From contig JAFUNA010000034.1 of the NCBI GenBank assembly GCA_017473165.1, positions 1-47,566 of the forward strand: a stretch of 47,566 nucleotides of DNA, read 5' to 3'. The position numbers and the translations under genes were made by a program. This DNA comes from Clostridia bacterium. GTDB taxonomy: Bacteria; Bacillota; Clostridia; Oscillospirales; Acutalibacteraceae. The notes beneath the pieces are model-generated. The model saw only the letters and a program-made list of their open reading frames with translations, did not search any database and was not told the DNA's origin. Positions within the stretch are counted from its first letter, which is position 1. The number at the start of each line of letters is the position of its first letter. Shown piece by piece: positions 379-32,059 of the stretch.

Positions 379-400
379 CTACGAAGAATTTTTATTCTCC

Positions 401-4123: not shown

Positions 4124-4135
4124 AAATCATATTTT

Positions 4136-5360: not shown

Positions 5361-5366
5361 GAAATT

Positions 5367-8437: not shown

Positions 8438-8472
8438 AGAATTTTGTGCTCTGTTAAATAATAATTTGTGAT

Positions 8473-8517: not shown

Positions 8518-8582
8518 TTTTGATTTATGCTCCCGCCGATGAATGCAAACATAATTTTGATAAGTAAAATTTTCAAAGGCAC

Positions 8583-8611
8583 TTGAACAAATGTTTTTTG
8601 TTTGGTATAAT
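8583..8611 (+). promoter_or_regulatory. sigmaA-type promoter of rarA
   Basis: TTGAAC (8583-8588), 17-bp spacer, TATAAT (8606-8611). Transcription would start about 25-30 bases before the ATG of rarA. Confidence 0.8.
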
Positions 8612-8643
8612 ACTTTTATATTCATGAAAGGCAAGGATTTTAT

Positions 8644-9909: not shown

Positions 9910-9919
9910 TTGTAAAATA

Positions 9920-9959
9920 AAAACGGAGATGCTTCGCAAAATGAAGCATTCTCCGTTTT
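9920..9959. terminator. bidirectional terminator between rarA and the GH71/99-like gene
   Basis: A long stem (9920-9935 with 9943-9959, AAAACGGAG paired with CTCCGTTTT plus TGCTTC/GAAGCA) has A-tract and T-tract on the two sides, placed between convergent genes. Confidence 0.9.
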
Positions 9960-9965
9960 GTGTTT

Positions 9966-11831
9966 TCAGAACGCAAACATGAATCTGCCGCCGGGAGCAA
10001 CGTCGCCGTTTTGGTAGAAATCCATAATATCGCCGTCGGTCTGCATATTATCGGAAAGCTTGAAATTGAAATGAACCTCGTCGCCGTCGGAAAGTCCGAG
10101 TGCACTTCTCGGCACGGAAAGCTGCATGATATTGCCGCTGACGGTGTATTCCGCCGTGCCCGTTTCCTCAAAATTCCAGCCGCCCGAGGATTTTTCAACT
10201 TTCAGAGTAGTTTTGTCTGCGGAATTTCTGTTGATGATATACTCAAAGCCTTCCCAGTTGGGGGAATTTCCCGTGAAATCCGTGTCGATGAGAATTCTCA
10301 TCCATGCAGGGTCGGTGTGGGGCGTGATTAAGTTGGCTGTGTGAATTCTGAAATAAACGTTTTTGCTGTCATAGGTGACCTTGACGCTTCTGAAATCGTT
10401 ACGCATGGTGTTGTTTTCGTAGTGCAGACCAACCCAGCCGTCAGCATCTCTTTTGCGGGTGCTGCGTATATAATGGAAATATTCGTTTTTGACGGAATCC
10501 CATTGGCTGTCGTCACCGCTGATATCGATTGTTGTGCCGCCGCTTGTTTCGGCTGGCTTGGTGACACCCTTGAATCTGCGGATGTTGGCACAAAGCTGAT
10601 AGTAATAATGGTCCTTCATGGCTCCTGCAGAGGGCTCGATGTCACGGCTGTATTCATCACAGAATTGGTCGGGGAATGCGTTTTCCGTGCCGCTCCATGT
10701 GTCGTGTCTGCCCGCAATCCATTCATTCCAGCCCGTAACAAAAATGAAATCGGGGTCGCATTCGATTGCGTAATCCCATTGCTGCTGGAAATTAAGACCG
10801 TAGAGCATTGAATTTTCGGTTGACGAATCAACGGTTACGGTTTCGCCGTTCTTTTGATATGAATAGGAGTAGTTGCCGTGGGTGAAGCTTCTGCCCTGAA
10901 CGTTACCGCCGTTGTTCATGGCAACAAGCTGACCGTCAGCGGCATTCTGTGCAACGGATACGCACATCTGCTCGGGATTTCCGAAAAGGGATGTTCCGAA
11001 TTTTGTCTGGGGATAGTCGCTGCACCAGCCCCAGGTTTTTTTTGTTATGAAATAGTTGTCGTCAAAATATGAGGGAACGTTTTCCTTGAAGGTGAAGAAA
11101 TCCAGAATTTCTTTTTCTTCGGGGAGTGACTTATCAAGAGCACCCGAATGTGCCATAATCAGCGGTTTATTGTCCCACATAAACCAAAGATGCTGATATC
11201 TGCCTTTTGAATAAATGTTGTTATAAAGGTCATGCAGGGATGTGTTTGCATCTTCCGAAGCACTGAACGGGAGCATGAACGCAACCTGCGGAACATTCAC
11301 ATCCTCGCTTATTGCCTCGTCAAACACCTTGAAAAGCGTTTCGTAGGCGGGCTGCCATGTGTAAGTGCCGTTGGTGCAGTCAAAAATTATAACGTCAACG
11401 CCTGCATCGGCAATCATTTCTGCGTGCTTTCTGACAACGTATTCGTCGAGATTCTGATAATAGCCGAAAAGCGGTTTGTTCCAATGGTAGGGCTTGCCGC
11501 TCGGAGTGTTTTCCCATACGGGATGCGAAAAGTCACGCACCGCCTCGGGATTCTTTTCGAGAATTTCCGTTACGTTGTCGGCTTCAAATTCCGATGCGAA
11601 GTTGTAATGCCATGTCCAGTAAAAAAGACCCACAAACTTTCTGTTGTCGGTTTCGCCGACCTCTTCATATGTCGGCAGACTTCTGCCGAGTCCGTCAACC
11701 GCAACCCACGTGTCGGGCTTTACCTTGTCGTAAACATTATCGTTGATATTATCCGTACCGCAAAATATAAGTGACGGAAGCATGAAAAATGCGGTGAAAA
11801 ATGAAACGATTGCTCTGATTATATCCGACAT
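9966..11831 (-). CDS. secreted GH71/GH99-like glycosidase with C-terminal carbohydrate-binding domain
   Basis: This 621-aa protein has an N-terminal hydrophobic export signal (IVSFFTAFFMLPSLIF). Its catalytic domain resembles the GH71/GH99 (endo-mannanase/xylosidase-like) barrel: VGLFYWTWHYN near the start, ADAGVDVIIFDCTNG, FMWDNKPLIMAHSG, and the C-terminal barrel signature VTGWNEW. From about residue 430 the sequence changes to a beta-sandwich (KVTYDSKNVYFRIHTANL, WMRILIDTDF, VPRSALGLSDGDEVHFNFKLSDN), like the CBM9/DOMON-type modules attached to extracellular glycosidases. A strong promoter and AAAGGAGG ribosome site precede the ATG. The substrate is not visible from sequence; alpha-mannan or a related glycan is a reasonable guess given the GH92 gene elsewhere in the window. 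Confidence 0.8.
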   Translation of the reverse strand: MSDIIRAIVSFFTAFFMLPSLIFCGTDNINDNVYDKVKPDTWVAVDGLGRSLPTYEEVGETDNRKFVGLFYWTWHYNFASEFEADNVTEILEKNPEAVRDFSHPVWENTPSGKPYHWNKPLFGYYQNLDEYVVRKHAEMIADAGVDVIIFDCTNGTYTWQPAYETLFKVFDEAISEDVNVPQVAFMLPFSASEDANTSLHDLYNNIYSKGRYQHLWFMWDNKPLIMAHSGALDKSLPEEKEILDFFTFKENVPSYFDDNYFITKKTWGWCSDYPQTKFGTSLFGNPEQMCVSVAQNAADGQLVAMNNGGNVQGRSFTHGNYSYSYQKNGETVTVDSSTENSMLYGLNFQQQWDYAIECDPDFIFVTGWNEWIAGRHDTWSGTENAFPDQFCDEYSRDIEPSAGAMKDHYYYQLCANIRRFKGVTKPAETSGGTTIDISGDDSQWDSVKNEYFHYIRSTRKRDADGWVGLHYENNTMRNDFRSVKVTYDSKNVYFRIHTANLITPHTDPAWMRILIDTDFTGNSPNWEGFEYIINRNSADKTTLKVEKSSGGWNFEETGTAEYTVSGNIMQLSVPRSALGLSDGDEVHFNFKLSDNMQTDGDIMDFYQNGDVAPGGRFMFAF

Positions 11832-11857
11832 GGCTTATTCCTCCTTTTTACGGTTTA

Positions 11858-11886
11858 ATTATAGATTTTTGTCAGAGGAATGTCAA
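11858..11886 (-). promoter_or_regulatory. sigmaA-type promoter of the GH71/99-like gene
   Basis: On the minus strand: TTGACA (11886-11881), 17-bp spacer, TATAAT (11863-11858). This is near consensus. Confidence 0.88.
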
Positions 11887-11952
11887 CAAAATATGCCTTG
11901 TTCGGCTGTCATAATTTACAAACCGCATCTTAATTTCTGTTCATTCTGCGAA

Positions 11953-11980
11953 TTGAATTTTTGTGCTTGCTGAATATAAT
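11953..11980 (+). promoter_or_regulatory. sigmaA-type promoter of the phosphatase-superfamily gene
   Basis: TTGAAT (11953-11958), 16-bp spacer, TATAAT (11975-11980), divergent from the promoter at 11858-11886. Confidence 0.75.
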
Positions 11981-12014
11981 TATAATTGTAATAAAAATAA
12001 AAGGAGCATTATTT

Positions 12015-12962
12015 ATGGCTGTTTTATCAAAAATCATCAGCATTGTTATGATTATTCCCGCACTTTTCGGAATTTATATAAACGACAAAAAAGATACAAA
12101 TGAATCGTATCTTGAAAAGATTGCACAGGTTGAGTATGAAAATACGGTTGAAACTGCCGTTGCACAGACCGAGCTTTATGACATGATTTATGACCATTTC
12201 AATTCGCCTCTGCCCGAGGGAAAGACCGAAAAGAAGGCAATTGTTATCGGCTATGACGGTTGCCGTGCAGATGCGTTGACTCTTACGGAAAATAATTTCA
12301 GCGGTATCAACAAAATGCTCGGAAACGGTGCGTCGCTGAAGCTTGCGTATTGCGGAGGTGTCAACTATCCCGCAGAAAACACGCAGGATACCTCAACCGC
12401 ACCCGGCTGGTGCTCTGTTTTGACAGGCGTTTGGGCAGACAAGAACGGTGTAACGGGTAACGGCATAACGAAAACAATGGAATACAAAACCCTTATGACA
12501 TCTCTGACAGAAGAAAAGGTTATTGATTCCGCAAGCTTCATCACCTCGTGGAACGGTCACTTTGAAACGGATAATTCCACATACAAGCTTGAAAAAGCAT
12601 ATTGCGAGGAAAAGGGTCTGAATGTCAGATTTAATTATTGTATTGAGGATACCGCATCCGCAAGAACGGCAATAAAAGACATCAAGAGCGATGACTGTTC
12701 CGACTTCATCTTTGCGATTTACGAGGGCACAGACCATGCGGGGCATACATTCGGATTCTCGTCAAATAATCCCATCTATCGTGCAGGATTCAGGCTCAAT
12801 GATATCCTTGCTTACAGAACGCTTGAGGCAATTGAAAGCAGAGATACATATGAATCCGAGGATTGGCTTATAATTCTTACGTCAGACCACGGCGGATTTG
12901 AAACAGACCATGGCGGACCCTCGATTCAGGAGAGAATGATTTTTATTCTTACGAACAAATAA
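12015..12962 (+). CDS. alkaline-phosphatase-superfamily protein (phosphodiesterase/phosphatase type)
   Basis: ATG 12015 follows AAAAGGAGCA; the upstream ATG 11961 lies in the promoter and is rejected. The 315-aa protein has an N-terminal membrane helix (about residues 5-22) that would place the catalytic domain outside. Superfamily metal-site motifs are visible: VIGYDGCRADAL (first Asp and the nucleophile region), STAPGWCSVLTG, YEGTDHAGHTFG and LTSDHGGF with a further ETDHGG. Members hydrolyse phosphomono- or diesters or transfer phospho-groups, and the substrate cannot be read from sequence. The next small gene is 20 bases downstream in the same transcript. Confidence 0.85.
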   Translation: MAVLSKIISIVMIIPALFGIYINDKKDTNESYLEKIAQVEYENTVETAVAQTELYDMIYDHFNSPLPEGKTEKKAIVIGYDGCRADALTLTENNFSGINKMLGNGASLKLAYCGGVNYPAENTQDTSTAPGWCSVLTGVWADKNGVTGNGITKTMEYKTLMTSLTEEKVIDSASFITSWNGHFETDNSTYKLEKAYCEEKGLNVRFNYCIEDTASARTAIKDIKSDDCSDFIFAIYEGTDHAGHTFGFSSNNPIYRAGFRLNDILAYRTLEAIESRDTYESEDWLIILTSDHGGFETDHGGPSIQERMIFILTNK

Positions 12963-12982
12963 TTTACAGAGAGGAAAATATT

Positions 12983-13129
12983 ATGGCAATTATAGCAATT
13001 TTAAGCGATATTCCCTATTACATCGCAGCTCTTGCCGAAAAGCTTTTCGGAGCTGATTTATCGGCGGTGCTTGACGGCTGCAACGGCGTTATATCGCAGA
13101 TTTTTGATGCGATTGAAAAAATCCTCTGA
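12983..13129 (+). CDS. 48-aa small hydrophobic protein
   Basis: ATG 12983 follows AGAGAGGAAAA. The product is MAIIAILSDIPYYIAALAEK at its start and continues as an amphipathic or membrane-associated helix ending FDAIEKIL. It follows the phosphatase gene by 20 bases and precedes the shared terminator, so it is probably the last gene of the operon. Its size and style resemble the small membrane proteins at 19966-20789, although no alignment is claimed. Function is unknown. Confidence 0.6.
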   Translation: MAIIAILSDIPYYIAALAEKLFGADLSAVLDGCNGVISQIFDAIEKIL

Positions 13130-13147
13130 TTCTTAAAACCAATAAAA

Positions 13148-13193
13148 ATGGCTTGTATAGGTTGAATTTGCCCATACAAGCCATAATTTTTTT
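13148..13193. terminator. bidirectional terminator
   Basis: An 11-bp stem ATGGCTTGTAT (13148-13158) pairs with ATACAAGCCAT (13174-13184). T7 follows on the plus side and T5 on the minus side. It closes both the phosphatase operon and the decarboxylase operon. Confidence 0.9.
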
Positions 13194-13195
13194 GT

Positions 13196-14374
13196 TTATT
13201 TGCCGAACATCATAAGCAGGAAGCCTGCTGCAACGGCTGAACCGATAACGCCCGCAACGTTGGGACCCATGGCGTGCATGAGAAGGAAGTTTGTGGGGTT
13301 ATACTTTCTACCCTCAACCTGTGCAACACGGGCTGCCATGGGAACGGCTGAAACACCCGCTGAACCGATGAGGGGATTGATTTTGCCGCCTGTAACAACA
13401 TAGAGGAGCTTTCCGAAAAGAAGTCCGCCGATTGTTGAGAATGCAAATGCGACAAGTCCGAGAATAACAATTTTGATTGTATCAAACTTAAGGAACTCCG
13501 TGCCGTTGGTGGTTGCACCTACGGTAACGCCGAGCATGATTGTTACGATGTTGGTCAGTGCGTTCTGTGCGGTGTCGCTGAGTCTGTCGGTAACTCCGCA
13601 AACCTTGAGAAGGTTGCCGAACATGAGCATACCGATAAGAGGAGCGGCATCGGGAATGAGAAGCGAAACAACAACGAAAACAACAACGGGGAAGATAATC
13701 TTCTCTGTTTTGCTTACGGTACGCAGCTGCTTCATTTCAACCTTTCTTTCCTTCTCTGTTGTGAGAAGCTTCATGAGAGGAGGCTGAATGAGGGGGATGA
13801 GTGCCATGTAGGAATATGCCGCAAGAGCGATTGGGCCGAGAAGGTGACCTGCAAGCTTTGAGGCAACGAGGATTGCCGTGGGGCCGTCTGCACCGCCGAT
13901 GATTGCAATTGAAGCTGCTTCCTGGGGAGTGAAGCCGAGCAGGATTGCAATAACAAATGCAATGTAGATACCGAGCTGTGCGGCTGCACCGAGAAGAAGG
14001 CTTACGGGGTTTGCAAGAAGGGGACCGAAGTCGGTCATTGCACCGATTCCGAGGAAGATGAGGCAGGGGAAGATTGAGCTCTTGACGCCTGCGTAAATCA
14101 GTCGCAGAACACCCGAATCATACCAATGAGCACCTTCAACGATGTTTGATGTGTCCATAAGACCCGTGGGGTCATCCATAAGACCCGCACCGGGCATATT
14201 TGCAAGAAGAATGCCGAATGCGATGGGAACAAGCAGAAGGGGCTCAAACTTCTTGACAATGGCAAGATAAAGGAAAACAACGGAAACAAGAATCATTACC
14301 GCATTCTGCCATGTGAGAAGAGCGAAACCCGAGCTTTCCCAGATTCCTTTTAATATTTCTGTGATAAACTCCAT
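13196..14374 (-). CDS. Na+-translocating decarboxylase, beta subunit
   Basis: This integral membrane subunit (392 aa, about 9-11 hydrophobic segments) couples decarboxylation of carboxybiotin to Na+ export, as in the oxaloacetate, glutaconyl-CoA and methylmalonyl-CoA decarboxylases (OadB/GcdB/MmdB). The family signature SIAIIGGADGPTAI is present near residue 158, along with the N-terminal and C-terminal hydrophobic halves (VGATTNGTEFL, GSAGVSAVPMAARV). It is the last gene of the unit, 11 bases after the biotin carrier. The substrate of the whole complex is set by the carboxyltransferase. Confidence 0.95.
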   Translation of the reverse strand: MEFITEILKGIWESSGFALLTWQNAVMILVSVVFLYLAIVKKFEPLLLVPIAFGILLANMPGAGLMDDPTGLMDTSNIVEGAHWYDSGVLRLIYAGVKSSIFPCLIFLGIGAMTDFGPLLANPVSLLLGAAAQLGIYIAFVIAILLGFTPQEAASIAIIGGADGPTAILVASKLAGHLLGPIALAAYSYMALIPLIQPPLMKLLTTEKERKVEMKQLRTVSKTEKIIFPVVVFVVVSLLIPDAAPLIGMLMFGNLLKVCGVTDRLSDTAQNALTNIVTIMLGVTVGATTNGTEFLKFDTIKIVILGLVAFAFSTIGGLLFGKLLYVVTGGKINPLIGSAGVSAVPMAARVAQVEGRKYNPTNFLLMHAMGPNVAGVIGSAVAAGFLLMMFGK

Positions 14375-14385
14375 AGAAAATCACC

Positions 14386-14808
14386 TTAACCGATAACTGC
14401 GAGAACTGCATCTGTTTCAACGGTTGAGCCCTTTGAAACAAGAATCTGCTTAACTGTGCCTGCACAGGGAGCAACGATTTCGTTTTCCATCTTCATTGCT
14501 TCAAGGATGATGAGAACGTCGCCTGCGTTAACGGTTGAGCCTACTGCCGTGTTAACGGAAAGGATTGTGCCGGGCATGGGAGCTGCGATTTTTGTTCCGT
14601 CTGCGGGAGCTGCTGCAACGGGTGCTGCGGGTGCAGCCTCGGGAGCAGGAGCTGCTGCAGGAGCGGGTGCAGCAACAGGTGCGGGAGCTGCAACAGGTGC
14701 AACGGGAGCTGCTGCAACGGGTGCGTCTGTTACGTTCATGATAACTGCCTGGGTTTCTTCAACCTCTACTTCGTATGCTTTACCGTTAAGATTTACAACA
14801 TATTTCAT
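14386..14808 (-). CDS. biotin carboxyl carrier subunit of the decarboxylase
   Basis: This 140-aa protein has a short N-terminal beta-domain ([17 protein letters not shown]), an Ala/Pro-rich flexible linker (about residues 28-70) and a biotinyl domain with the attachment motif EAMKMEN, where the Lys carries biotin. It shuttles the carboxyl group from the carboxyltransferase to the membrane beta subunit. It is encoded separately rather than fused to the alpha subunit, as in GcdC/MmdC systems. The repetitive GCA/CCT codons of the linker give apparent direct repeats at about 14590-14720. Confidence 0.95.
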
Positions 14809-14813
14809 AATAA

Positions 14814-15311
14814 TTATTCCTCCACTTTTTTGATTGATTTGAAGTTGAGCCTGTTAAGCGGAATACCGCTTTCATTGCTGACGATTGCCATAATTGTTGC
14901 CGCTGTGCGTTCATCAACGTCAACGAGCTCGGTTATGCCTTTGATTAACCTGAAAGCAAGTCTTTCAAGAGGAATACCGCTCTGATTGCTTACAAGAGCC
15001 ATAACAACTGCGGCGGTGGGTTCGTCAACGTCAATAAGCTGAATGCCGTTTGCCGTGCCGTAAGAAACAGCGGGAGCTGCGGGTGCAGCGGCGGGAACGG
15101 GAGCGGGAACAACTGCTGCTGCGGGAGTTGAACCGGTTTCGGGTTCTTCGGAATTATTGTCTGTAAGCTTGCTTTCGATTGATCTCATTATCTTTGAAAT
15201 GCCGAGAATGAGAACGGTAATCAGAGCAAGTTCGGCAATAACAACTAAAATACCTGCAACGGCAACGAGCAATGTTTCGGGCATGGTTAAAAATTCTTTA
15301 TCTGCAAACAT
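14814..15311 (-). CDS. decarboxylase gamma-type subunit with a duplicated C-terminal module
   Basis: ATG 15311 is chosen because GAGGG lies 8 bases upstream; the GTG at 15320 has no room for a ribosome site. The 165-aa protein has one membrane helix (residues 12-37), as in OadG subunits, and an Ala/Pro linker. Two consecutive homologous modules follow (about 90-126 and 127-163), both of the form DVDE.TAA..MA.VSN.SGIPL.RL. OadG normally holds the complex together. Such modules occur singly as small delta-type proteins in related systems, so this looks like a gamma subunit fused to a tandemly duplicated accessory module. Confidence 0.82.
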
Positions 15312-22627: not shown

Positions 22628-23983
22628 TCATATTAAAAATGCCTTTGCAAGTCCGAAGTAAATTACGAGAGTTACGATGTCAACAAGGGTTGCTATCATC
22701 GGACCTGCCATAAGTGCGGGGTCAAGCTTTACAATCTTTGCAAAAATCGGAAGTGAGCAGCCGATGAGCTTTGCAACAACGATTGCAAAAAACATTGCAA
22801 GCGAAACAACAAGAAAAACCTCAATTGTTCCTTCGCAGAAAAGATACATCCGCAGAATGTTTGCCGCACCGAGCACAAGTCCGCAAATCGATGCAACACG
22901 AAGCTCTTTGAAAACGATTTTGAGATAGTCTTTTATCTCGATTTCGCCAACCGCAAGACCGCGGATTATCAGCGTTGAAACCTGGCTGCCTGCGTTACCG
23001 CCCGTGCCCATGAGCATGGGCATTGAGGCTGTGAGTGCAACAAATCCAGCAAGCAGGGTTTCGTAGCCCTCAATGATTTTGCCCGTAAAGGTTCCCGAAA
23101 TCATGAGAATCAGCAGCCAGAGAATTCTGTTTCGGGCAAGCTTGAAAACTCCTGTTTTGAGGTATTCGTCATCCGACGGAGCAAGCAATGCCATCTTTTC
23201 GAAGTCCTCTGTGGTTTCTTCTTCGATAACGTCAACGATATCGTCAACGGTGATGATGCCCACAAGACGGTTTTCGTTGTCAACAACGGGTACGCTCAAA
23301 AGGTCGTATTTTTTAACAATTTCCGCAACATATTCACGGTCATCGAGAGTGTTGACGGAAATAAGCTGTGCATCGTCCTCCATGATGTCGCCAACAAGGG
23401 CATCGGCATCGCAAAGAAGCAGCGAAAGCAGGGGGATGCTGCCAAGCAGATGATGCTCACGGTCGATGCAGTAGCAGGTGTAGACGGTTTCCTTGTCTAC
23501 GCCTGTTTTTCTTATTTTTTCGATTGCTTCGGCAGCGGTGAGCGAGGTGCGAAGATGCACCATTTCGATTGTCATAAGGCTGCCTGCACAGTCATCGGGA
23601 TATTTGAGAAAGCGGTTGATGAGCTTTCGAGTTTCGGGGTCGGAATGAGCAAGAACACGGGTTACAACGTTTGCGGGAACTTCCTCAAGGAAGTCAACCG
23701 TATCGTCAAGAAACATTTCGTCAAGCAGGCGTTCAAGCTCGGTGTCGTTAATCATACGCACAAGGTCGGCCTGGGTGTCGGGTTCAAGATAGGCAAAAAC
23801 CTCGGCGGAAACGTCCTTGGGAAGAATTCTGAAGGCGTGAAGCCTCGGCTTTGACTCAAGCTCCTCAAGCAGCAGAGCGGTGTCAACAACGTTCATTTCA
23901 GTCAGCATTTCACGCATTGCCGAAATTTCGCCGCTTTTAATGAATTCGTTGAGCTGTTCAAGCAAAAGCTCTAAATTTTCCAT
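22628..23983 (-). CDS. mgtE: magnesium transporter MgtE
   Basis: This 451-aa protein has the full MgtE plan: an N-terminal superhelical domain (AFRILPKDVSAEVFAYLEP, LDEMFLDDTVDFLEEVPA), two CBS domains (about residues 140-260; SIPLLSLLL, LLSVPVVDNENRLVGIITVDDIVDVI), and five C-terminal membrane helices with the conserved GTGGNAGSQ pore-region motif near residue 326. CBS and N domains sense cytosolic Mg2+ and gate the channel. The ribosome site is AAAGGAGATGC. It has its own promoter and a 190-nt structured leader, and stands alone. Confidence 0.96.
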   Translation of the reverse strand: MENLELLLEQLNEFIKSGEISAMREMLTEMNVVDTALLLEELESKPRLHAFRILPKDVSAEVFAYLEPDTQADLVRMINDTELERLLDEMFLDDTVDFLEEVPANVVTRVLAHSDPETRKLINRFLKYPDDCAGSLMTIEMVHLRTSLTAAEAIEKIRKTGVDKETVYTCYCIDREHHLLGSIPLLSLLLCDADALVGDIMEDDAQLISVNTLDDREYVAEIVKKYDLLSVPVVDNENRLVGIITVDDIVDVIEEETTEDFEKMALLAPSDDEYLKTGVFKLARNRILWLLILMISGTFTGKIIEGYETLLAGFVALTASMPMLMGTGGNAGSQVSTLIIRGLAVGEIEIKDYLKIVFKELRVASICGLVLGAANILRMYLFCEGTIEVFLVVSLAMFFAIVVAKLIGCSLPIFAKIVKLDPALMAGPMIATLVDIVTLVIYFGLAKAFLI

Positions 23984-24061: not shown

Positions 24062-24153
24062 GTGAAAATTAACGGCAGCCCGTCAATGCGGCAATATTGG
24101 CTTATGTATCTACTTCGGGGGTTGGGTATTTCGGAACTGCCCAAAATTTTCAC
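24062..24153 (-). ncRNA. structured 5' leader of mgtE, candidate cis-regulatory RNA
   Basis: In the mgtE transcript leader, a 9-bp closing stem (GTGAAAATT at 24153-24145 with AATTTTCAC at 24070-24062) encloses a second helix (GGCAG with CTGCC, 24141-24137 and 24078-24074) and a multi-purine internal region of about 58 nt. An A/T hairpin (GTGATTTAA/TTAAATCGC) follows before the ribosome site. The design (promoter, closed multi-helix domain, second hairpin, mgtE) is that of a riboswitch-type control element. It does not match the M-box motifs I know, and the ligand, if any, is unknown. Confidence 0.45.
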
Positions 24154-24182
24154 CACACATTCAAAAAATTTTTTACTCCTTA

Positions 24183-24427: not shown

Positions 24428-24907
24428 ATGAAAAAAGGATTGACTGAGAAAGAACGTCTTTTCTGCTTTTATTTTGCACAGGACGGCGATGCAAGAGGCT
24501 GTGCCGCAAGGGCGGGCTTTTCGGTTGCACCGAAAAGAAGTGCGGCAAGGCTTCTTTGCAGAGAAGAAATCAAAGCCGAAATTGCAAAGCTTGAAAAAGA
24601 AAAGAAGTCGGTCAATGCGGTTGAAAAAGGGCTCATGCGTCTTGCATTCGGCTCGGTTGCGGATGCGATGAAGCTTATGCTTTGCGAGGAAGCTATGAGT
24701 GCGGAGGAGATTGAAAAGCTTGACCTTTTCAACGTTTCCGAAATCAAGCGGCCAAAGGGCGGCGGACTTGAAATCAAGTTTTTTGACCGCATCAAGGCTC
24801 TTGAAAGGCTCGAAAAGCTCGGCGGCGGTGAAGAAAACACCCAAAGCAGCTTTATTCAGGCTCTTTCGGAGGGCGCAAAAATTCTTTCGCAGGGTGATTC
24901 GGTTTGA
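24428..24907 (+). CDS. phage terminase small subunit
   Basis: This 159-aa protein begins with a terminase-small-subunit DNA-binding domain (LTEKERLFCFYFAQDGDARGCAARAGF, with an HTH continuing KRSAARLLCREEIKAEIAKLE). A C-terminal helical oligomerisation region follows (FDRIKALERLEKLGGG). It recognises the packaging substrate and recruits the large subunit. ATG 24428 follows GGAAAGGAGATGTG. It is the first gene of the head cluster and overlaps terL by 4 bases. Confidence 0.88.
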   Translation: MKKGLTEKERLFCFYFAQDGDARGCAARAGFSVAPKRSAARLLCREEIKAEIAKLEKEKKSVNAVEKGLMRLAFGSVADAMKLMLCEEAMSAEEIEKLDLFNVSEIKRPKGGGLEIKFFDRIKALERLEKLGGGEENTQSSFIQALSEGAKILSQGDSV

Positions 24908-26169
24908 GCTCAAAAAAGCAGAAATTCACCGCATTTTCCGAAAAACAGCTGAAGGCTCTTTGCTGGTGGCTGCCCGAAAGTCCGCTGCGGTTTCACGATG
25001 CGGTTATCTGTGACGGTGCGGTCAGGTCGGGAAAAACCCTTTGCATGTCTGTTTCTTTTGTAACATGGGCATTTTCAGCGTTTTCGGACTGCTCATTTGC
25101 CCTTTGCGGAAAAACAATCGCATCTCTCAAACGCAACGTTGTTACGGTTATTCTGCCCGTTTTGCGTGAGCTTGGCTTTGAGTGCACGGAAAAGCATTCG
25201 AAAAATCTTGTTGAAATTTCCTACAGGGGAGTCACAAACAGATTTTATCTTTTCGGCGGAAAGGATGAGGGCTCGGCAGCTCTTATTCAGGGCATGACTC
25301 TTGCGGGAGTTTTGCTTGACGAGGTTACGCTCATGCCCCGCTCGTTCGTTGAACAGGCTCTTGCACGATGCTCCGTTGACGGCTCAAAGCTTTGGTTTAA
25401 CTGCAATCCCGAGCATCCCATGCACTGGTTTCACGAGGAATGGGTCAAAAAGCATGAGGAGAAAAACTGCCTTTATCTTCATTTCACGATGAAGGATAAT
25501 CCGTCCCTTACACCTGCAATTATCCGCAGATATGAGAAGCTTTATTCGGGTGCATTCTATGAACGTTTCGTGCTCGGAAGATGGGTTGCGGCACAGGGCA
25601 GCGTTTATCCCATGTTTTCGCAGGAAAAGCACGTTGTGAACCCTCCCGAAGTCTTTGAAAGCTATTACATTTCCTGCGACTACGGCACGGTGAATCCGTC
25701 TTCATTCGGTCTTTGGGGCGAAAACGGCGGAAGGTGGTACAGAATCAGAGAATACTACTTTGATTCCCGTGCAGAGGGTCGTCAGCGTACCGACAGCGAG
25801 CATTATGAGGCTCTTTGTGAGCTTGCGGGAAATCTGCGGATTGAAGCGGTTGTTGCCGACCCGTCGGCGGCAAGCTTTATGGAGTGCATAAGGCGTGAGG
25901 GCAGATTCAGGGTTATTCCCGCACGGAATGACGTTATTGACGGCATTCGCCGTGTTTCCGACTGCCTTAAAGAGCAGAAAATCATGTTTTCGCCCGAATG
26001 CAAAGACACAATCCGTGAATTCGGGCTTTACAGGTGGGAGGAAAACTCCGCAAAGGATGCGGTCAAAAAAGAGAATGACCATGCGATGGACGATATCCGC
26101 TATTTTGTTTCAACGGTTGTGACGCAAACCGATGACTGCGGATTTTTCGCCGTTGCGGCAAAAAGATGA
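24904..26169 (+). CDS. phage terminase large subunit (packaging ATPase-nuclease)
   Basis: The TTG at 24904, overlapping the terS stop, is the likely start (421 aa). The ATPase domain shows Walker A GAVRSGKT (residues 38-45) and Walker B GVLLDE. The C-terminal RNase-H-like nuclease shows its acidic residues in ISCDYG, VVADPSAAS and HAMDDIRYF. Both active sites look intact, so the protein should still package DNA. It is similar in size and motif order to PBSX/Terminase_6 type large subunits. It lies 13 bases before the portal gene. Confidence 0.95.
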   Translation: MSSKKQKFTAFSEKQLKALCWWLPESPLRFHDAVICDGAVRSGKTLCMSVSFVTWAFSAFSDCSFALCGKTIASLKRNVVTVILPVLRELGFECTEKHSKNLVEISYRGVTNRFYLFGGKDEGSAALIQGMTLAGVLLDEVTLMPRSFVEQALARCSVDGSKLWFNCNPEHPMHWFHEEWVKKHEEKNCLYLHFTMKDNPSLTPAIIRRYEKLYSGAFYERFVLGRWVAAQGSVYPMFSQEKHVVNPPEVFESYYISCDYGTVNPSSFGLWGENGGRWYRIREYYFDSRAEGRQRTDSEHYEALCELAGNLRIEAVVADPSAASFMECIRREGRFRVIPARNDVIDGIRRVSDCLKEQKIMFSPECKDTIREFGLYRWEENSAKDAVKKENDHAMDDIRYFVSTVVTQTDDCGFFAVAAKR

Positions 26170-26182
26170 AAGGAGGAAATGA

Positions 26183-27313
26183 ATGGGAATTTTTAAGAAA
26201 AAGAATAATGCAAGAGTTTCAGCACCCGCCGTGCAGACAAAAAACAGACATCCCTTCGGCATGATTGACGGCTATGTGCCCCTCGGTGCACCGCAGCTTC
26301 GGCTTTACCGTGCTTTGCGTGAAGCCGTGCCCGTTATCGATGCGGCGATATTCAAGCTCGTGCGTCTTACGGGCGGATTTGCGGCTGAATGCGAAAACAA
26401 AGCCGCCGAGGCGGAGCTTTCGGAGTTTATCCGCAGCGTACCCGTCGGCGGCAACAGAATGGGACTTTCGGAATTTGTTTCAACCTATTTTGAGCAGCTT
26501 CTGACCTTCGGCACGGCGGTTGGCGAAATTGTTACCGACACCGAGGGGAATCCCCGTGCACTTTTCAATGCACCTCTTGAAAACATTGAGCTGAAGCGTC
26601 ACAAAAACGGCTTTGATGTTGACATTTTTGTTCGTGACGGTGCAAAGCTCCGCAAGGTTTCAAGACCCGATATGTGCCTTTTGAGCGTGCTCAATCCCGA
26701 CCCCGGGGCGTTGACGGGCAACTCAATGCTTAAGGGCTTGCCGTTTGTCAGCTCTGTTCTGCTCAAAATTTTCGACAGCATCGGTGCAAACTGGGAAAGA
26801 GTCGGCAATCTTCGTTTCGCGGTTACTTATAATCCCAAGAACGATGCCGTTGACAGAGCTTATGCAAAAGACAGAGCCTTGCAGGTTGCGAAGGAATGGA
26901 GCGAAGCCATGCAGAGCGGCTCGGAAATCAGAGATTTCGTTGCGGTGGGTGATGTTCAGATTAAGGTTATCGGTGCGGATAATCAGATTCTTGACAGCAA
27001 CGTGCCCGTCAGACAGATGCTTGAACAAATCGTGTCAAAAACGGGGATACCGCCCTTCATGCTCGGACTTTCGTGGTCGAGCACGGAAAGAATGTCGTCG
27101 CAGCAGGCGGATGCCCTCACAAGCGAGCTTGAAGCCTACAGAAGAATTCTTACCCCCGTTATAGCCAGAATCTGCAATGCGTTTCTCCGCAGCAGAGGTT
27201 ATACCTGCAGGGCAAACATCGTCTGGGATAACATTACGCTTCAGGACGAGGTTGAGCTGAGCAGAGCCGCACTCTACAGGGCACAGGCAGAAAAAATCAG
27301 GAGAGGAGAATGA
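26183..27313 (+). CDS. phage portal protein (HK97-like)
   Basis: This 376-aa protein would form the ring at the capsid vertex through which DNA is packaged. Typical portal features are the YRALREAVPVIDAAIFKLV start, the FGTAVGEIVTD beta wing, NPDPGALTGNSML and the clip/stem region, and KTGIPPFMLGLSWSSTERMSSQQADAL near the C-terminus. Ribosome site AAAGGAGGAAATGA. Its stop overlaps the protease start by 4 bases (ATGA), giving translational coupling. Confidence 0.92.
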   Translation: MGIFKKKNNARVSAPAVQTKNRHPFGMIDGYVPLGAPQLRLYRALREAVPVIDAAIFKLVRLTGGFAAECENKAAEAELSEFIRSVPVGGNRMGLSEFVSTYFEQLLTFGTAVGEIVTDTEGNPRALFNAPLENIELKRHKNGFDVDIFVRDGAKLRKVSRPDMCLLSVLNPDPGALTGNSMLKGLPFVSSVLLKIFDSIGANWERVGNLRFAVTYNPKNDAVDRAYAKDRALQVAKEWSEAMQSGSEIRDFVAVGDVQIKVIGADNQILDSNVPVRQMLEQIVSKTGIPPFMLGLSWSSTERMSSQQADALTSELEAYRRILTPVIARICNAFLRSRGYTCRANIVWDNITLQDEVELSRAALYRAQAEKIRRGE

Positions 27314-28173
27314 TTACGGAAAAGGAAAACATTAATCAGCTTCCCGATGAGGAGCTTGAGCTTATCGGGAAATTTGCAAGAAAAAAGCTTGAAAATGACG
27401 AGCTTTACACGTTTTCGCTTATCCTCTGCGATAACGAAATCGACAGGGATAACGAGAAGTTTACAATTCAGGCACTCAACACCCTTGCAAAGCTTTTTGT
27501 GGGAAAAACGGGTATTTTTGACCACAACATGAAAAGCAAGGACCAGTCGGCAAGAATCTATGCCGCCGAGGTTGTGACGGACAGCATCCGCAAAACCGCC
27601 GACGGCGAGGATTACACCTATATCAAAGCAAAGGCATATATGGTCAGAACCGAGAAAAACAAGGACCTTATTGCCGAAATAGATGCGGGAATCAAGAAGG
27701 AAACCAGCGTCGGCTGCTGCGTGAGCGACATCAGCTGCTCAATCTGCGGCAGAAATATCAAAACCGAGGGCTGCGAGCATCAGAAGGGTAAAACCTACGG
27801 CGGAAAGCTTTGCTGCTATCTGCTTTCAGAACCTACGGATGCCTATGAATGGTCATTTGTGGCTGTTCCCGCACAGAAAAATGCAGGGGTTATCAAATCT
27901 TTCAATCCCATGCACGAAACAGAAAAGCTTGCCGACATGGCAAGAGAATATCAGAGTGAATTGCAGAGCGAAATTCTTCGCTGTGCCGCAGGCGTGCTTC
28001 CCGAAATGAAGTCTGCGGCACTTGAAGAAATCTGCGGCTCTCTTTCAATCGGGATGCTGCGTGAAATGCGTGACGCATTCCGCAAAAGTGCACAGAAAAA
28101 TCTGCCCGTTGTAAGACAGCTTGACTGCGGCGGTGCAGACGAAGAATCGGAAAATTCCGAATATAAAATTTAA
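27310..28173 (+). CDS. prohead maturation protease with a Cys/His-rich insert
   Basis: This 287-aa protein sits between portal and capsid genes, where capsid maturation proteases are found. A candidate catalytic His is in FDHNMKSKDQSARI and the Ser in IKKETSVGC, the order and spacing expected of herpesvirus/HK97-like (S78 type) proteases. Directly after the Ser lies an unusual CSICG...CEH...CC segment (about residues 135-165) that could bind zinc. The C-terminal part (about 200-287) is helical and could be a scaffold. Assignment rests on motif plus gene order. Confidence 0.75.
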   Translation: MITEKENINQLPDEELELIGKFARKKLENDELYTFSLILCDNEIDRDNEKFTIQALNTLAKLFVGKTGIFDHNMKSKDQSARIYAAEVVTDSIRKTADGEDYTYIKAKAYMVRTEKNKDLIAEIDAGIKKETSVGCCVSDISCSICGRNIKTEGCEHQKGKTYGGKLCCYLLSEPTDAYEWSFVAVPAQKNAGVIKSFNPMHETEKLADMAREYQSELQSEILRCAAGVLPEMKSAALEEICGSLSIGMLREMRDAFRKSAQKNLPVVRQLDCGGADEESENSEYKI

Positions 28174-28187
28174 GGAGGAAAAAATTT

Positions 28188-28526
28188 ATGTCAGTAGCAT
28201 TTGACGGATTCAACAGAAACACGGCAACATTCAAAATCACAGAGGATATCGAAGCGGGTACAGCGGTAAAAATCACCGAATCGGCACAGGTTGAGCCCTG
28301 TGCAGACGGCGATGCTTTCTGCGGCTTCGTTGAAAACGGCGATAACGGCTATGCAGCCGTGCAGCTCAGCGGTGCGGTAACGGCGGTTTATTCGGGCTCC
28401 GCTCCCGAGGTCGGCTTCACAAAGCTTGCTTCCGACGGCAGCGGCGTTAAGGCTTCGGACAGCGGCAGAGAATATCTTGTTGTTGCAGTTGATGAAACCG
28501 CATCAACCGTAACCTTTATCATGTAA
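28188..28526 (+). CDS. capsid decoration/stabilisation protein (DUF2190-like)
   Basis: This 112-aa all-beta protein has the pattern of small decoration proteins: FKITEDIEAGTAVKITESAQV, GDAFCGFVENGDNGYAAVQLSG, then a C-terminal VAVDETASTVTFIM. Such proteins reinforce the capsid surface and are encoded next to the major capsid gene, as here. Ribosome site AAGGAGGAAAAAATTT. Confidence 0.78.
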   Translation: MSVAFDGFNRNTATFKITEDIEAGTAVKITESAQVEPCADGDAFCGFVENGDNGYAAVQLSGAVTAVYSGSAPEVGFTKLASDGSGVKASDSGREYLVVAVDETASTVTFIM

Positions 28527-28539
28527 GGAGGAATTTATA

Positions 28540-29544
28540 ATGTCAAATTACGATAATATCAGACTCGAAAAGGGTCTTTATGCTTCAGGCAATTTCACAA
28601 AGGCTCTCGAAAGCCTTGACCCCACGGAGAATTACAAGGGCACTTCACTTGAAAGTCTTGACGCATATCAGCGTCAGCTCAAGCGTTTCGGCATCAAGGT
28701 CGGCGGAACTTCCAGTGATATCGTTGACAAGTTTTTCAAGAGCTCCGACAGTGCGGTGCTTTTCCCCGAATATGTTTCAAGAGCCGTAAAGCAGGGACTT
28801 GAGCAGAGCGATATCCTTCCCGGTATTGTTGCAACAACAACTTCAATCGACGGTCTTGACTACCGCTCAATCACTTCAATTCCTTCAGAGGAGGAAAAGG
28901 AGCTTAAAATCGTTAAGGAGGGTGCGTTTATTCCCGAAACAAATATCCGCACCAAGGAATGCCTTGTAAAGCTTAAAAAGAGAGGCAGAAGCCTTGTTGC
29001 TTCATATGAGGCAATCCGTTTTCAGCGTCTTGACCTTTTCACCGTAACCCTTCGCCAGATCGGTGCATACATCGGCAGAACACTTCTCAAGGATGCAATT
29101 GATGTTCTTGTAAACGGTGACGGCAGCGGCAATGCGGCTGAAAATATTGCAGCCGAAACTCCCGGCACACTTGAATATGCTGACCTTATCGGCTTCTGGA
29201 ACAGCTTTGACCCCTATGAGCTCAACACAATCGTTGCATCTCCCGAGGTTATGGCTGAAATGCTCAACATGGAGCAGTTCAGAGATGCCGCCGCAGGTCT
29301 TAATTTCCACGGCAAGGGCAATATGATTACTCCCCTCGGTGCAAAGCTTCTCAAGTCAAACGCCGTTGCAGAGGGCACACTTGTCGGTCTTGACAAGACC
29401 GCTGCTCTTGAAATGGTCAAGGCGGGCGATGTTATGACCGAATACGACAAGCTCATTGACCGTCAGCTTGAACGTGCGGTTATCAGCTGCACAACGGGCT
29501 TCAACAAGATTTTTGACGGTGCATCAAAGGTGCTCACCGTCTGA
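28540..29544 (+). CDS. major capsid protein (HK97 fold)
   Basis: This 334-aa protein shows the layout of a major capsid protein. It has a charged N-terminal arm (about residues 1-60), then VLFPEYVSRAVKQGLEQSDILPGIVATTTSIDGLDYRS, the E-loop with KEGAFIPETNIRTKECLVKLKKRGRSLVASYEA, a spine helix region (LRQIGAYIGRTLLKDAIDVLVNG) and an A-domain ending IDRQLERAVISCTTGF. It is strongly expressed by the look of its ribosome site (AAGGAGGAATTTATA). It lies 13 bases after the decoration gene. Confidence 0.9.
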   Translation: MSNYDNIRLEKGLYASGNFTKALESLDPTENYKGTSLESLDAYQRQLKRFGIKVGGTSSDIVDKFFKSSDSAVLFPEYVSRAVKQGLEQSDILPGIVATTTSIDGLDYRSITSIPSEEEKELKIVKEGAFIPETNIRTKECLVKLKKRGRSLVASYEAIRFQRLDLFTVTLRQIGAYIGRTLLKDAIDVLVNGDGSGNAAENIAAETPGTLEYADLIGFWNSFDPYELNTIVASPEVMAEMLNMEQFRDAAAGLNFHGKGNMITPLGAKLLKSNAVAEGTLVGLDKTAALEMVKAGDVMTEYDKLIDRQLERAVISCTTGFNKIFDGASKVLTV

Positions 29545-29561
29545 TAAACGGAGGTAGCGTT

Positions 29562-29927
29562 TTGATTGACTGCTGGAGAATACTTAATGCTCTGCGGGAA
29601 TATTATTCTCCCGCAGGCACAGACGAGGAGCTGATTCCTCTTTGCACCTCTGCCGCAAAAGAAATTTCCGCAAGGGTCAAAAAGAATGCCGATATAACGG
29701 ACATACGCCTTATCAATGCAGCGGCGGCGATAGTCAATTACCGCCTTTGCATGAGAAATCTTTCCGCTGCGGATTCCGTGACATCCTTCAAGGCGGGTGA
29801 CGTTACTGTCAGCATTTCGCCCAATGCGGCGGCGGAGCGTGCAGAAAAAGAAAAAAGCGAGGCAATGCTTGCGGCGTTGCCTCTGCTGCGGGATGATGAG
29901 TTTGTGTTCAGGCAGGTGAGCGTATGA
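29562..29927 (+). CDS. head-tail connector protein
   Basis: The start is TTG 29562 after ACGGAGGTAGCG, giving a 121-aa mostly helical protein (WRILNALREYYSPAGTDEELIPLCTSAAKEISARV, NAAAAIVNYRLCMRN). Size, helical make-up and position after the capsid gene fit the gp6/gp15-like adaptors that dock on the portal. It overlaps the next gene by 4 bases. Confidence 0.68.
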   Translation: MIDCWRILNALREYYSPAGTDEELIPLCTSAAKEISARVKKNADITDIRLINAAAAIVNYRLCMRNLSAADSVTSFKAGDVTVSISPNAAAERAEKEKSEAMLAALPLLRDDEFVFRQVSV

Positions 29928-30271
29928 ATATCAGACCCTTGTTTGCCGAATACGGCAGGCAGGTTGAACTCTTCGGCAGGGATAACGAAAAGCTCGGCGA
30001 AACCTGTGCGTTCATAAGCCCTCTGCGTTATAAAAACAAAATGTACCTTTACGGTGTCAACACCGAAATCGGCTACAACTCACAGGGGCACTATCTCTAT
30101 ATCGGTCCTCCCGACAGCGACCTGACCCTGCTTTCGGACGGCAGTTACATTTCCTGTGCGGACAAAAAATACAGAATTGACCGTGCCGAAAAGGTGTATA
30201 AGGGCAGCGATGTGTTCTACATCTGGGCAATTGTCAGAGAAATTGTTGAAATTGAGGAGGAAGAGTCATGA
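29924..30271 (+). CDS. putative head-completion protein
   Basis: This 115-aa beta-rich protein (VELFGRDNEKLGETCAFISPLRYKNKMYLYG, YLYIGPPDSDLTLL) has no firm family. Its place after the adaptor gene, its size, and its 4-base overlaps with both neighbours suggest a head-closure (stopper) or equivalent. It is kept as putative. Confidence 0.6.
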   Translation: MNIRPLFAEYGRQVELFGRDNEKLGETCAFISPLRYKNKMYLYGVNTEIGYNSQGHYLYIGPPDSDLTLLSDGSYISCADKKYRIDRAEKVYKGSDVFYIWAIVREIVEIEEEES

Positions 30272-31110
30272 GCGAAATAAGTGCTTTGCCGGGCAGCATT
30301 GTTGAGTGGCTGAAAACAAGGGATGAGCTTGACTATATAAAATTTCTTGTTGAGTTTCCCGCAATCAAAAAGGCGGTTCCGCTCAACAAAACAATTGTTG
30401 CCGTCGGCATAGGCGGCATTGATATAGTTGATTCCTTCGTTGAAAACGATGAGGGTGTGCTTGTTGAAAACGAATACTGCAGACAGGCAAATATGAGGCT
30501 GCGGCTTTCGATTCATGCGCCATATTCGCAGGGCGGTGAAGCGTGCCACAGAGCGTTCACGGACATAATCGACTGTCTGACCTTTGCATCGGGACTTGAT
30601 ATTATTACTTCGGGCTGCGATGCGATTTCGTCGGACAGAGATACCGATGCGTTTGTTCTGAATGCGTGGATTTCAGTCAAGGCATCGCTTTGCCCCGCCG
30701 AGTCTTCGGGACTGGAGTTTCCGTCATTTATAAGCAAAGAGCTGCTCTGCGGTTCGCATATTAACAACGCCGCGGTTCATGTAAGCGAAAAGGAAAAGGA
30801 GTTTCTGCAGACCCCGTTTGTATCCGGCAGCTATTTCGGCACGGGCTCTGCGTCAAGAAGCATTTCCCTCGGCTTCAGCCCGAGCGTTGTGATTGTTGCC
30901 GCAAACGGATTACCGATGATGTATGTAAACCATGCAGAAGGTGCAAATTACGCCTTTATGGGCGTTGCGTTTCAGGGTGGACAGACTCTTGGCGTTGAGG
31001 TTACGAGCACGGGCTTTAAACTGCGGTCGGGTGACGGCACGGTTGCACGAAGCTGTTATCCTCTGTTCAACGAATTGGGTACAACATATGTTTATATAGC
31101 GTTTAAATGA
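30268..31110 (+). CDS. two-domain terminal protein of the head cluster
   Basis: This 280-aa protein seems composite. Residues 1-150 (SIVEWLKTRDELDYIKFLVEFPAI, HRAFTDIIDCLTFASGLDI) resemble tail-terminator or minor-capsid proteins. Residues 170-280 (SYFGTGSASRSISLGFSPSVVIVAANGLP, GVEVTSTGFKLRSGDGT, TTYVYIAFK) look like the beta-sandwich repeats found on phage surface and receptor-binding proteins. It closes the cluster directly before the terminator, where a tail module would normally begin. A capsid-vertex surface protein is one possible role. Confidence 0.6.
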   Translation: MSEISALPGSIVEWLKTRDELDYIKFLVEFPAIKKAVPLNKTIVAVGIGGIDIVDSFVENDEGVLVENEYCRQANMRLRLSIHAPYSQGGEACHRAFTDIIDCLTFASGLDIITSGCDAISSDRDTDAFVLNAWISVKASLCPAESSGLEFPSFISKELLCGSHINNAAVHVSEKEKEFLQTPFVSGSYFGTGSASRSISLGFSPSVVIVAANGLPMMYVNHAEGANYAFMGVAFQGGQTLGVEVTSTGFKLRSGDGTVARSCYPLFNELGTTYVYIAFK

Positions 31111-31159: not shown

Positions 31160-32059
31160 TTATTTTCTCATTTCTGCGAGGTCACGGTAGTTGATGAGCT
31201 TGATTCCGTTTGCCTCGATATGCTGCTTTGTTTTGGGGTCTTTCATGATTTCATATTCCCAGACTCTTCTCTGCCATGCTCCCGTTGTGCCCTTGAGGTC
31301 GTCGGTTTCGAGCGAGGGATGAAGATAGGTTTCTGTTATTCCGTCGGGAATGTTTGCGTAAAGGTCATAGAGATATTCTTTGAAGTTTTCGTAGCTGTCA
31401 GCCTGCGGACCGCTCCATTCGTTGGGAATGAGGTAGTCGGGGATTGCAACCTTGTTCATCTTTGCAAATTCAACGATTTTGCCGAAAACCATGTCAATCA
31501 TGCTCTTGTCAACGTTGATGTCAAGCATCGAGTTACCCATCATCGCATCCGTTATGTTTGCGGGCATACGGAAGGGAAGTCCCATTTCGCCGGCGATTGT
31601 AAGAGTGAGCTGAAGAAGTTCGAATCTGCCTGTTTCGATGCCGTAAAGCGAGCCCATGTGGTTGTCGAGATGTGAGGGATTGACAAGACCGAGTGTCTTT
31701 GCACGGGCAACCTGTGCTCTGATTTCGCCCTCAACCTCGTCAATGTCAACGTTGTTTTCAACCTGGTCGCTTTCGTGCCACATAAAGCCCTCCTCGTCAC
31801 GGAGAGAATCTGTGTTTTTGGAGTTAACGGGTGCCCAGCGGTATTTGCTCCATTCGCTTGTAAGCGTGAGGTGAACGCCGATTGCAAGGTCGGGATTTGC
31901 AGCTGCAAACTGACAAGCCTCGGGTGCCCATGCACAGGGAGTCATAATTGTTGATGATGTGAGTGCGCTGTTTTTGTCGGTCAGAAGGTCCATAACTGCA
32001 AGGTTAGCACCTCTGCACATACCGAAATCGTCTGCGTTGATGATAAGATATCTGTCCAT
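31160..32059 (-). CDS. ChbG/YdjC-type carbohydrate deacetylase
   Basis: This 299-aa protein belongs to the YdjC/ChbG family, which removes acetyl groups from N-acetylated sugars. The metal-binding motif INADDFG is at residues 7-13, followed by the second conserved block (IGVHLTLTSEW), SHLDNHMGS (metal His residues) and ETYLHPS. It is the last gene of a three-gene minus-strand unit with GH92 and a FliB-like gene. The GH92 neighbour suggests that the substrate is a fragment of an N-glycan or other mannosylated glycan. Confidence 0.85.
   Translation of the reverse strand: MDRYLIINADDFGMCRGANLAVMDLLTDKNSALTSSTIMTPCAWAPEACQFAAANPDLAIGVHLTLTSEWSKYRWAPVNSKNTDSLRDEEGFMWHESDQVENNVDIDEVEGEIRAQVARAKTLGLVNPSHLDNHMGSLYGIETGRFELLQLTLTIAGEMGLPFRMPANITDAMMGNSMLDINVDKSMIDMVFGKIVEFAKMNKVAIPDYLIPNEWSGPQADSYENFKEYLYDLYANIPDGITETYLHPSLETDDLKGTTGAWQRRVWEYEIMKDPKTKQHIEANGIKLINYRDLAEMRK

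Follow-up and report, generated by a model that had tools for sequence, protein, structure and literature searches.

Nine head genes in one cluster

The DNA analyzed here (the window) is a contig of 47,566 nucleotides, JAFUNA010000034.1 of assembly GCA_017473165.1, from a Clostridia bacterium of the Acutalibacteraceae. Between positions 24428 and 31110, on the plus strand, it carries a compact phage-head cluster of nine open reading frames (ORFs), all of them unbroken, which either overlap by 4 bases or sit 13 to 17 bases apart. A first-pass annotation had described the cluster as an isolated, tailless head module of nine tightly packed genes; every frame was found intact where it had been placed, and the packing was confirmed. 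Comparisons below draw mostly on 115 loci, namely the window and sets of 14, 20, 20, and 60 chosen from capsid matches in its genus and family (L049 to L162), among which duplicate genomes were checked by record names only.

The small terminase subunit TerS (24428 to 24907, with an ambiguous start codon, either the GTG at 24395 or position 24428) matches PF03592 (E = 2.1e-14) and phrog_51 (6.7e-16), and its profile is found in 109 of the 115 loci. The large subunit TerL, an ATPase and nuclease (24904 to 26169), matches PF03237 (1.3e-17) and the solved phage terminase 5oe8 (6.8e-144). Its Walker and nuclease residues are retained, as had been claimed for the window: in an alignment of loci of the window's own type, called fused-type below after gene 9, the six residues that we take to be catalytic are identical in 42 of 43 loci, with a gap in the remaining one. 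The portal protein (26183 to 27313) matches phrog_30703 at 3.2e-130 and PF04860 at 5e-9, the latter with a score of 36.2 that falls below the curated cutoff of 39.1.

Gene 4 (27310 to 28173) probably encodes a prohead protease with a Cys/His insert. It belongs with phrog_16951 (8.1e-100), a family of unknown function, and gave no meaningful match to PDB profiles; across 55 sequences H72, S133, C143, C146, C155, and H157 are invariant, a His/Ser plus Cys/His pattern that presumably fits such a protease. Gene 5 (28188 to 28526), a probable head decoration protein, matches the virion structural protein family phrog_4588 (8.7e-25). The major capsid protein (28540 to 29544), present in a single copy in its own genome, matches PF25209 (1.8e-15) and phrog_3922 (3.6e-99). 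A 13-row capsid alignment searched against PDB profiles returned nothing useful, and a wider one hit capsid entries weakly (E = 0.02 and 0.078), ranking them below repetitive recA constructs.

Genes 7 (29562 to 29927) and 8 (29924 to 30271) are named by position as neck adaptor and neck stopper or closure protein; their profiles recur in 113 and 107 of the 115 loci, respectively, with no PHROG and a chance-level Pfam match for the former and no family match for the latter. Gene 9, the composite protein of the first-pass annotation, resolves with two profiles into a tail-completion (neck) domain at residues 1 to 141 (30268 to 30690; free-neck-protein profile, positions 1 to 138 of 143, E = 5.2e-35) and a fiber tip domain at residues 160 to 280 (30745 to 31107; free-fiber profile, positions 36 to 155 of 155, E = 2.8e-28). 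The neck domain takes its name from the position of its homolog in relatives. The tail fiber family phrog_24898 matches gene 9 at 0.0026, and the best PDB match is Gp15 at 0.0057. Among the names first proposed for the nine genes, TerS, TerL, portal, and capsid were thus matched to families and protease and decoration protein are probable; adaptor and closure protein stand by position only.

Inheritance, selection, and flanking genes

The capsid gene was found in 35 of 45 genomes of the genus (13 of the 15 good ones), each with one match and no internal stops, and in 144 of 250 genomes of the family, representing 80 of 135 genera, again with one match each except for two in one genome (G259). 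At the level of the order it occurs in 71 of 394 genomes under six family codes. A tree of TerL, portal, and capsid tracks the rpoB tree over 54 genomes, these being the mapped clusters whose rpoB place was among those listed (Mantel r = 0.555; 0 of 2,000 permutations reached this value, the highest being 0.248). Of the 10 fused-type genomes, nine group as a single clade and branch alike in the head and rpoB trees, and the tenth (G047) falls outside that clade in both. The cluster is largely inherited vertically, like a gene of the host's own, by many related species, and the vertical inheritance proposed as a check on the first-pass annotation is borne out.

The genomic setting was likewise held within the genus, as the first-pass annotation had asked of its mgtE and deacetylase flanks. 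Upstream and on the opposite strand, mgtE is present in 21 of the 115 loci, with its ORF starting 5.8 to 6.2 kb before the capsid gene; the 21 include three baseplate-bearing loci from the family (L063, L064, and L133). Because mgtE flanks both kinds, some fused-type and some baseplate-bearing clusters occupy one site. The deacetylase flank is limited to 14 of the 115 loci, every one fused-type.

The genes of the cluster are kept under purifying selection. Median dN/dS values in the genus, over 51 to 159 pairs per gene (very divergent pairs give no value), are 0.088 for TerL, 0.098 for capsid, 0.113 for portal, 0.136 for gene 4, 0.154 for gene 8, 0.162 for gene 9, 0.166 for TerS, 0.221 for gene 7, and 0.325 for gene 5. 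The suggestion that selection rather than decay has kept the frames open, with dN/dS below 1, therefore holds for medians of 0.09 to 0.33 per gene. For comparison, the flanking genes gave 0.013 to 0.113 for mgtE (6 pairs) and 0.032 to 0.095 for the deacetylase (5 pairs). The pair L094-L095 has a capsid dN/dS of 0.575 at a dS of 0.07, and the open frame there is 569 residues long.

A prophage remnant is rejected by the unbroken genes, the purifying selection, and the host-like inheritance. The maps of the 115 loci show a compact cluster with no complete prophage seen around it (the flanks were looked at, not systematically annotated), and so the situation that would have spoken for simple prophage origin, the same genes occurring only within complete prophages, was not encountered in the mapped loci. 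One cluster, on IMG/VR contig L200, has an integrase-like gene nearby, read by eye, in DNA (7083 to 15119) that lies past the downstream tRNA-Pro; a mobile module there was considered and rejected, L093 having the same tRNA-Pro without the integrase-bearing DNA. As observations on gene order, the capsid gene stands ahead of portal in L365 and L229 and ahead of gene 4 in L423, and two short frames in genome G649 (C15, 14800 to 14973; C29, 103650 to 103823) match only positions 1 to 58 of the capsid profile.

Around the cluster, ten proteins spanning 18446 to 40347 were searched, and none belongs to a phage structural or integrase family, in agreement with the first-pass annotation. Upstream is mgtE (22628 to 23983, minus strand; PF01769, 1.4e-38), a conserved neighbor outside the particle set, and downstream is a YdjC-type sugar deacetylase (31160 to 32059, minus strand; PF04794, 6.2e-55), the neighbor within the genus. 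The other identified flanks are a glycosidase 92, a PASTA kinase, GlgB- and GlgC-type enzymes, and a helix-turn-helix/lipase fusion that also touches Phage_CI_repr (1.4e-4); of the remaining proteins, one gave a weak match and two were unmatched. Integration and replication genes were found neither in the cluster nor among these ten proteins, two of which had no match. Codon use in the cluster correlates with that of the flanking host genes at 0.944, which bears out its description as host-like. The two flanking genes named in the first pass thus stood, and the terminator it had placed downstream did not: no terminator-like site was found on the plus strand between 31110 and 31300, the end of the scan.

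Rfam gave no match in the window, apart from one chance-level match in the upstream gap (E = 4). A segment of that gap at about 24107 to 24160, between mgtE and TerS, is strongly conserved across 15 aligned loci of the genus, also without an Rfam match, and is perhaps a minus-strand leader of mgtE. Far from the cluster, positions 1 to 6000 of the window have a low GC content (0.32 to 0.37), with genes at 829 to 5203 that deviate in codon use (correlation with the rest, 0.342); this region may be an acquired island.

Tail genes and the neck-fiber fusion

Relatives of the cluster differ in what follows the head. By type, the 115 loci comprise 48 with a baseplate set, 44 with a fused neck and fiber and no baseplate, 16 with a neck and no fiber match, and 7 with neither; four of them are incomplete downstream (L058, L060, L104, and L111). 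A baseplate set was scored when profile searches recovered four or more of LysM, hub, gp45, gp25, J, and I, where J was identified as Pfam Baseplate_J (3e-36 and 3e-55). Of the 48 baseplate loci, 6 also encode a tail sheath (phrog_279, 2e-36 and 6e-28). Among other families of the order, 20 loci were fetched out of 36 matches, and 15 of these 20 have the sheath. Neither sheath nor tube was found in the 44 fused loci.

The four states require 18 changes on a head tree of 133 loci (133 of 135 rows, leaving out the stand-alone capsid L081 and one locus with fewer than two of the three genes), against a mean of 68.1 when shuffled, and 0 of 200 shuffles were as low. Presence of the baseplate changes 11 times on this tree and the fused state 6 times, the starred branches forcing 2 of the 6; since six changes are needed, the fused state is perhaps of more than one origin. 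Most simply, the tail was lost in steps, and the clade of the window lost sheath and baseplate. Stepwise loss is suggested because relatives carry the same head followed by sheath and baseplate genes, some of them at the same mgtE site. Its direction is not fixed by the tree itself, and loss is the simpler direction because the fullest tail is kept in most of the sampled loci from other families. Three loci (L125, L134, and L160) keep the neck and a tube-like protein with the rest of the baseplate gone, except that L160 also keeps LysM and hub; these are apparent intermediate stages of tail loss.

The fusion itself is in the data. All 44 fused proteins are matched by each of two profiles. The first, built from 33 free neck proteins, covers at the median profile positions 1 to 138 of 143 and residues 1 to 141; the second, built from 25 free fibers, aligns only from profile position 36 (median, 36 to 155 of 155 on residues 160 to 280). 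These ranges indicate that the fused gene consists of the neck domain and the fiber tip, minus the start of the free fiber. That start looks alike among most of the free fibers compared and may be the part that anchors the fiber to the baseplate. The two halves also differ in constraint: dN/dS was lower in the neck half (0.015 to 0.132) than in the tip half (0.120 to 0.348) in 8 of 8 valued pairs, the narrowest gap being 0.132 versus 0.172.

We also searched for a tail elsewhere in the genome, one of the checks that had been proposed, and found no match in the window's own genome to the baseplate-J profile or to the tape-measure family PF10145. Within the genus, baseplate-J was absent from all 15 good genomes and gave a single borderline match among the 45 (9.5e-4, G043), and 4 of the 45 have a tape-measure protein. 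Over the family, 109 of 250 genomes have a baseplate-J match, and the strongest of these mostly share a contig with the capsid gene (by eye, not counted). The competence family comEC is present in 42 of the 45 genus genomes and in 10 of 14 control genomes; because the controls carry it too, it is uninformative on delivery of DNA to recipient cells.

Phage-borne capsid copies, alternatives, and known systems

Five unverified GenBank scaffolds from human feces, filed as 'Bacteriophage sp.' (MT835508, MT836604, MT835952, MT835769, and MT838993; L194 to L198), hold the whole or part of the cluster, with capsid identities of 53 to 64%. One of them, MT835508, is bacterial chromosome filed as phage because ribosomal-protein and Rnf operon genes, read by eye, are present on it. 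In IMG/VR, 394 stretches encode this capsid when an alignment is used as the query (80 were kept); a single capsid sequence as the query found nothing. Named phages reach a capsid identity of at most 28.8%.

Some phage contigs carry the capsid gene by itself. Six such stand-alone lineages were found (L213, 10001 to 10981; L231, 7359 to 8366; L081, 9471 to 10400, in G259; L404, 6450 to 7385, with near-copies L405 to L409; L410, 6959 to 7903; and L424, 9992 to 10930), and no other head gene of the cluster was found within 3.5 kb of them, L407 to L409 being near contig ends; L213 and L231 come from the IMG/VR scan with the alignment. Their searched neighbors match phage families (helicase, DHH phosphoesterase, tRNA-His guanylyltransferase, RNA ligase, NAD genes, and RtcB). 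L213 has a TerL, portal, and capsid of its own, and the L410 record has its own terminase match (1.3e-7); the five other records have none by that family. The L231 copy is 99.1% identical to the cluster capsid in MT836604 and was therefore taken recently. Two further observations are that L424 also has a relative of gene 5 about 4 kb away and that the L405 record has a second, partial capsid copy.

What sets most of these copies apart is a deletion of capsid residues 121 to 130 (window numbering; at least 6 gaps in that range), seen in 11 of 12 stand-alone rows, or 5 of 6 lineages, versus 1 of 234 cluster copies (those over 300 residues, the window included); L404 and L410 are kin and share one deletion, and the search that recovered L410 and L424 started from L404, itself loop-deleted. 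These residues are presumably the tip of the E-loop of HK97-type capsids, which joins capsomers. A subunit able to bind but not to link could poison assembly of the shell. If the copies are such poisons, phages would be countering a host gene transfer agent (GTA), a theme on which one literature search found no paper.

Taken together, these results make it probable that the cluster encodes a domesticated, vertically inherited, GTA-like particle with its tail reduced so far as to leave a tip-bearing head. Inheritance of the kit by relatives in the manner of host genes suggests particles carrying bacterial DNA. Taking selection, inheritance, and the fusion from the data, we would picture packaging, closure, binding, and delivery as follows: on a host signal some cells would make small capsids, into which TerS and TerL would load host DNA by way of the portal; the portal would then be closed by genes 7 and 8 together with the N-terminal part of gene 9; the fiber tip, at the portal vertex, would bind a neighboring cell; and the DNA would pass to or into that cell with no tail tube involved. 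Exit from the producer cell would need lysis genes. A broader proposal, that a GTA lineage in several families of gut Clostridia shed its tail stepwise, that the bare, DNA-filled head binds cells by its portal vertex through a neck protein fused to the fiber tip, and that phages fight back with stolen loop-deleted capsid copies, is possible but doubtful as a whole.

Several points weigh against a GTA-like particle. We infer the particle, its packaged DNA, and its transfer in this host from genes alone, and we know of no route by which a tubeless head injects DNA through a Gram-positive wall. No lysis genes are in the cluster, the genome not having been searched for them. Because the genome is 88% complete, the absence of a second operon is not certain. 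The cluster is dispensable, since the capsid went unmatched in 10 of the 45 genomes of the genus (2 of the 15 good ones) and in 106 of 250 family genomes. The Mantel correlation is moderate, and some horizontal movement is therefore possible. Pairs used for dN/dS overlap, and single pairs reach 0.910 for gene 5, 0.752 for gene 7, and 0.691 for TerS. Finally, the comparison below with the GTA of Faecalibacterium covers published gene content and particle form, and kinship between the two is a possibility only.

The phage-borne copies invite another explanation, namely, that the host turns its head and terminase on infecting phages, competing for their DNA, packaging it, or disturbing their assembly, and that this conflict maintains the genes. 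The stand-alone copies, which resemble assembly poisons and lack the loop in a far greater proportion than cluster copies do, speak for it. Phages could, however, poison a GTA merely to spare host resources, and the relatedness of two of the five loop-deleted lineages and the query by which L410 and L424 were found weaken the point, so that we regard such an anti-phage device as unlikely. The retained neck genes bring up a satellite-like, head-only element whose neck docks the tails of coresident phages, a possibility also in keeping with the tape-measure family found elsewhere in 4 of 45 genus genomes and with several neck-only clusters that end at the tail-completion protein. In the window's clade, however, the neck protein bears its own tip where a tail would dock, the ten flanks hold no integrase family, the cluster is single copy with host-like inheritance, and its genome lacks baseplate-J and tape-measure matches; borrowing of tails is accordingly improbable.

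The repeated loss of parts (the 11 baseplate changes) and the complete absence of the capsid from some family genomes could also mean that tail loss was the first step in the decay of a GTA, with the head as a leftover. Purifying selection on the head genes after tail loss in the fused-type genus, retention of the TerL catalytic residues, and the presence of the fused gene in 44 of 115 loci speak against this, and we consider decay about as improbable. The least credible of these alternatives is a particle free of DNA, either a killing device or a shell of protein or for cargo. The lack of a tail for delivering DNA would suit this reading, and PBSX is described as acting as a tailocin and not injecting its DNA (PMC12946183). 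Yet the three lowest median dN/dS values in the cluster belong to TerL, capsid, and portal, a DNA-free shell would need neither terminase nor portal, and a killing particle normally requires a tail. Among the three candidates of the first-pass annotation, then, a domesticated GTA-like particle fits, with packaging read from the genes, and a capsid-forming satellite and a cargo shell fit worse because no integrase family adjoins the cluster and the full terminase and portal are kept.

Set beside known systems, the cluster resembles the GTAs of Rhodobacter and Caulobacter, which are likewise host-inherited phage-like clusters with their own terminase, portal, protease, and capsid. Those GTAs are tailed, whereas the present system has lost its tail and joins the tail-completion domain to the fiber domain; the cluster has no baseplate, tube, or sheath, and the genome, at its 88% completeness, no baseplate-J. 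We file the system as GTA-like, not as a GTA, because the tail of the known alphaproteobacterial agents is absent. Capsid-forming satellites (cf-PICI) also have head genes without tail genes. In such satellites integrase, regulator, and replication genes adjoin the capsid genes; the ten flanking proteins here, without a phage structural or integrase family, and the host-like inheritance set the cluster apart from them. Encapsulin-type cargo shells consist of a shell protein with no portal or terminase and are ruled against by the presence of both. The TerL proteins ranked nearest among named phages are those of deep-sea thermophilic phage D6E and Staphylococcus phage SpaA1 (50.0% identity), with that of PVJ1 close by (50.2%); D6E and SpaA1 have records of 43 to 49 kb, and neither is among the capsid matches. 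The LysM/hub/J/I order of Bacillus subtilis PBSX resembles that of the window's baseplate-bearing relatives, and the window's form differs from PBSX in being without sheath, tube, and baseplate.

In the literature searched we found no paper on this cluster, and a single report touches its theme (PMC12946183). Borodovich et al. (2026) describe FpGTA of Faecalibacterium, encoded in two operons and packaging about 9 kb of random DNA in heads of about 40 nm with no identifiable tails, which were possibly lost or are very short (PMC12946183). They also describe random host-DNA packaging of 4.6 to 8.9 kb in Ruminococcaceae and Oscillospiraceae, with 4.6 kb found in Ruminococcus callidus, and packaging resembling that of a GTA in Onthomonas and Gemmiger (PMC12946183). 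Four metagenome-assembled genomes were searched there for the operon, and one of them, a Faecalibacterium, gave a strong candidate (PMC12946183). FpGTA and the window's cluster share a gut Clostridia host, a small head cluster, no replication genes, and no identifiable tail (PMC12946183). They differ in that FpGTA I comprises 10.5 kb and ten ORFs, compared with 6.7 kb and nine genes here, and in that FpGTA II supplies baseplate, fiber, and lysis genes, compared with a genome without a baseplate-J match (PMC12946183). Random host DNA of defined size has been seen in FpGTA particles, whereas the window's cluster is known through its genes only. The natural series of relatives, from sheath and baseplate through baseplate only and fused neck and tip to neck only, lets one ask how far a particle that carries DNA can do without a tail. 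By analogy with FpGTA, the window's system is a candidate source of packaging in gut genera beyond Faecalibacterium, and the cluster could supply the genes for host-DNA packaging that was reported in several gut genera with an operon given only for Faecalibacterium (PMC12946183).

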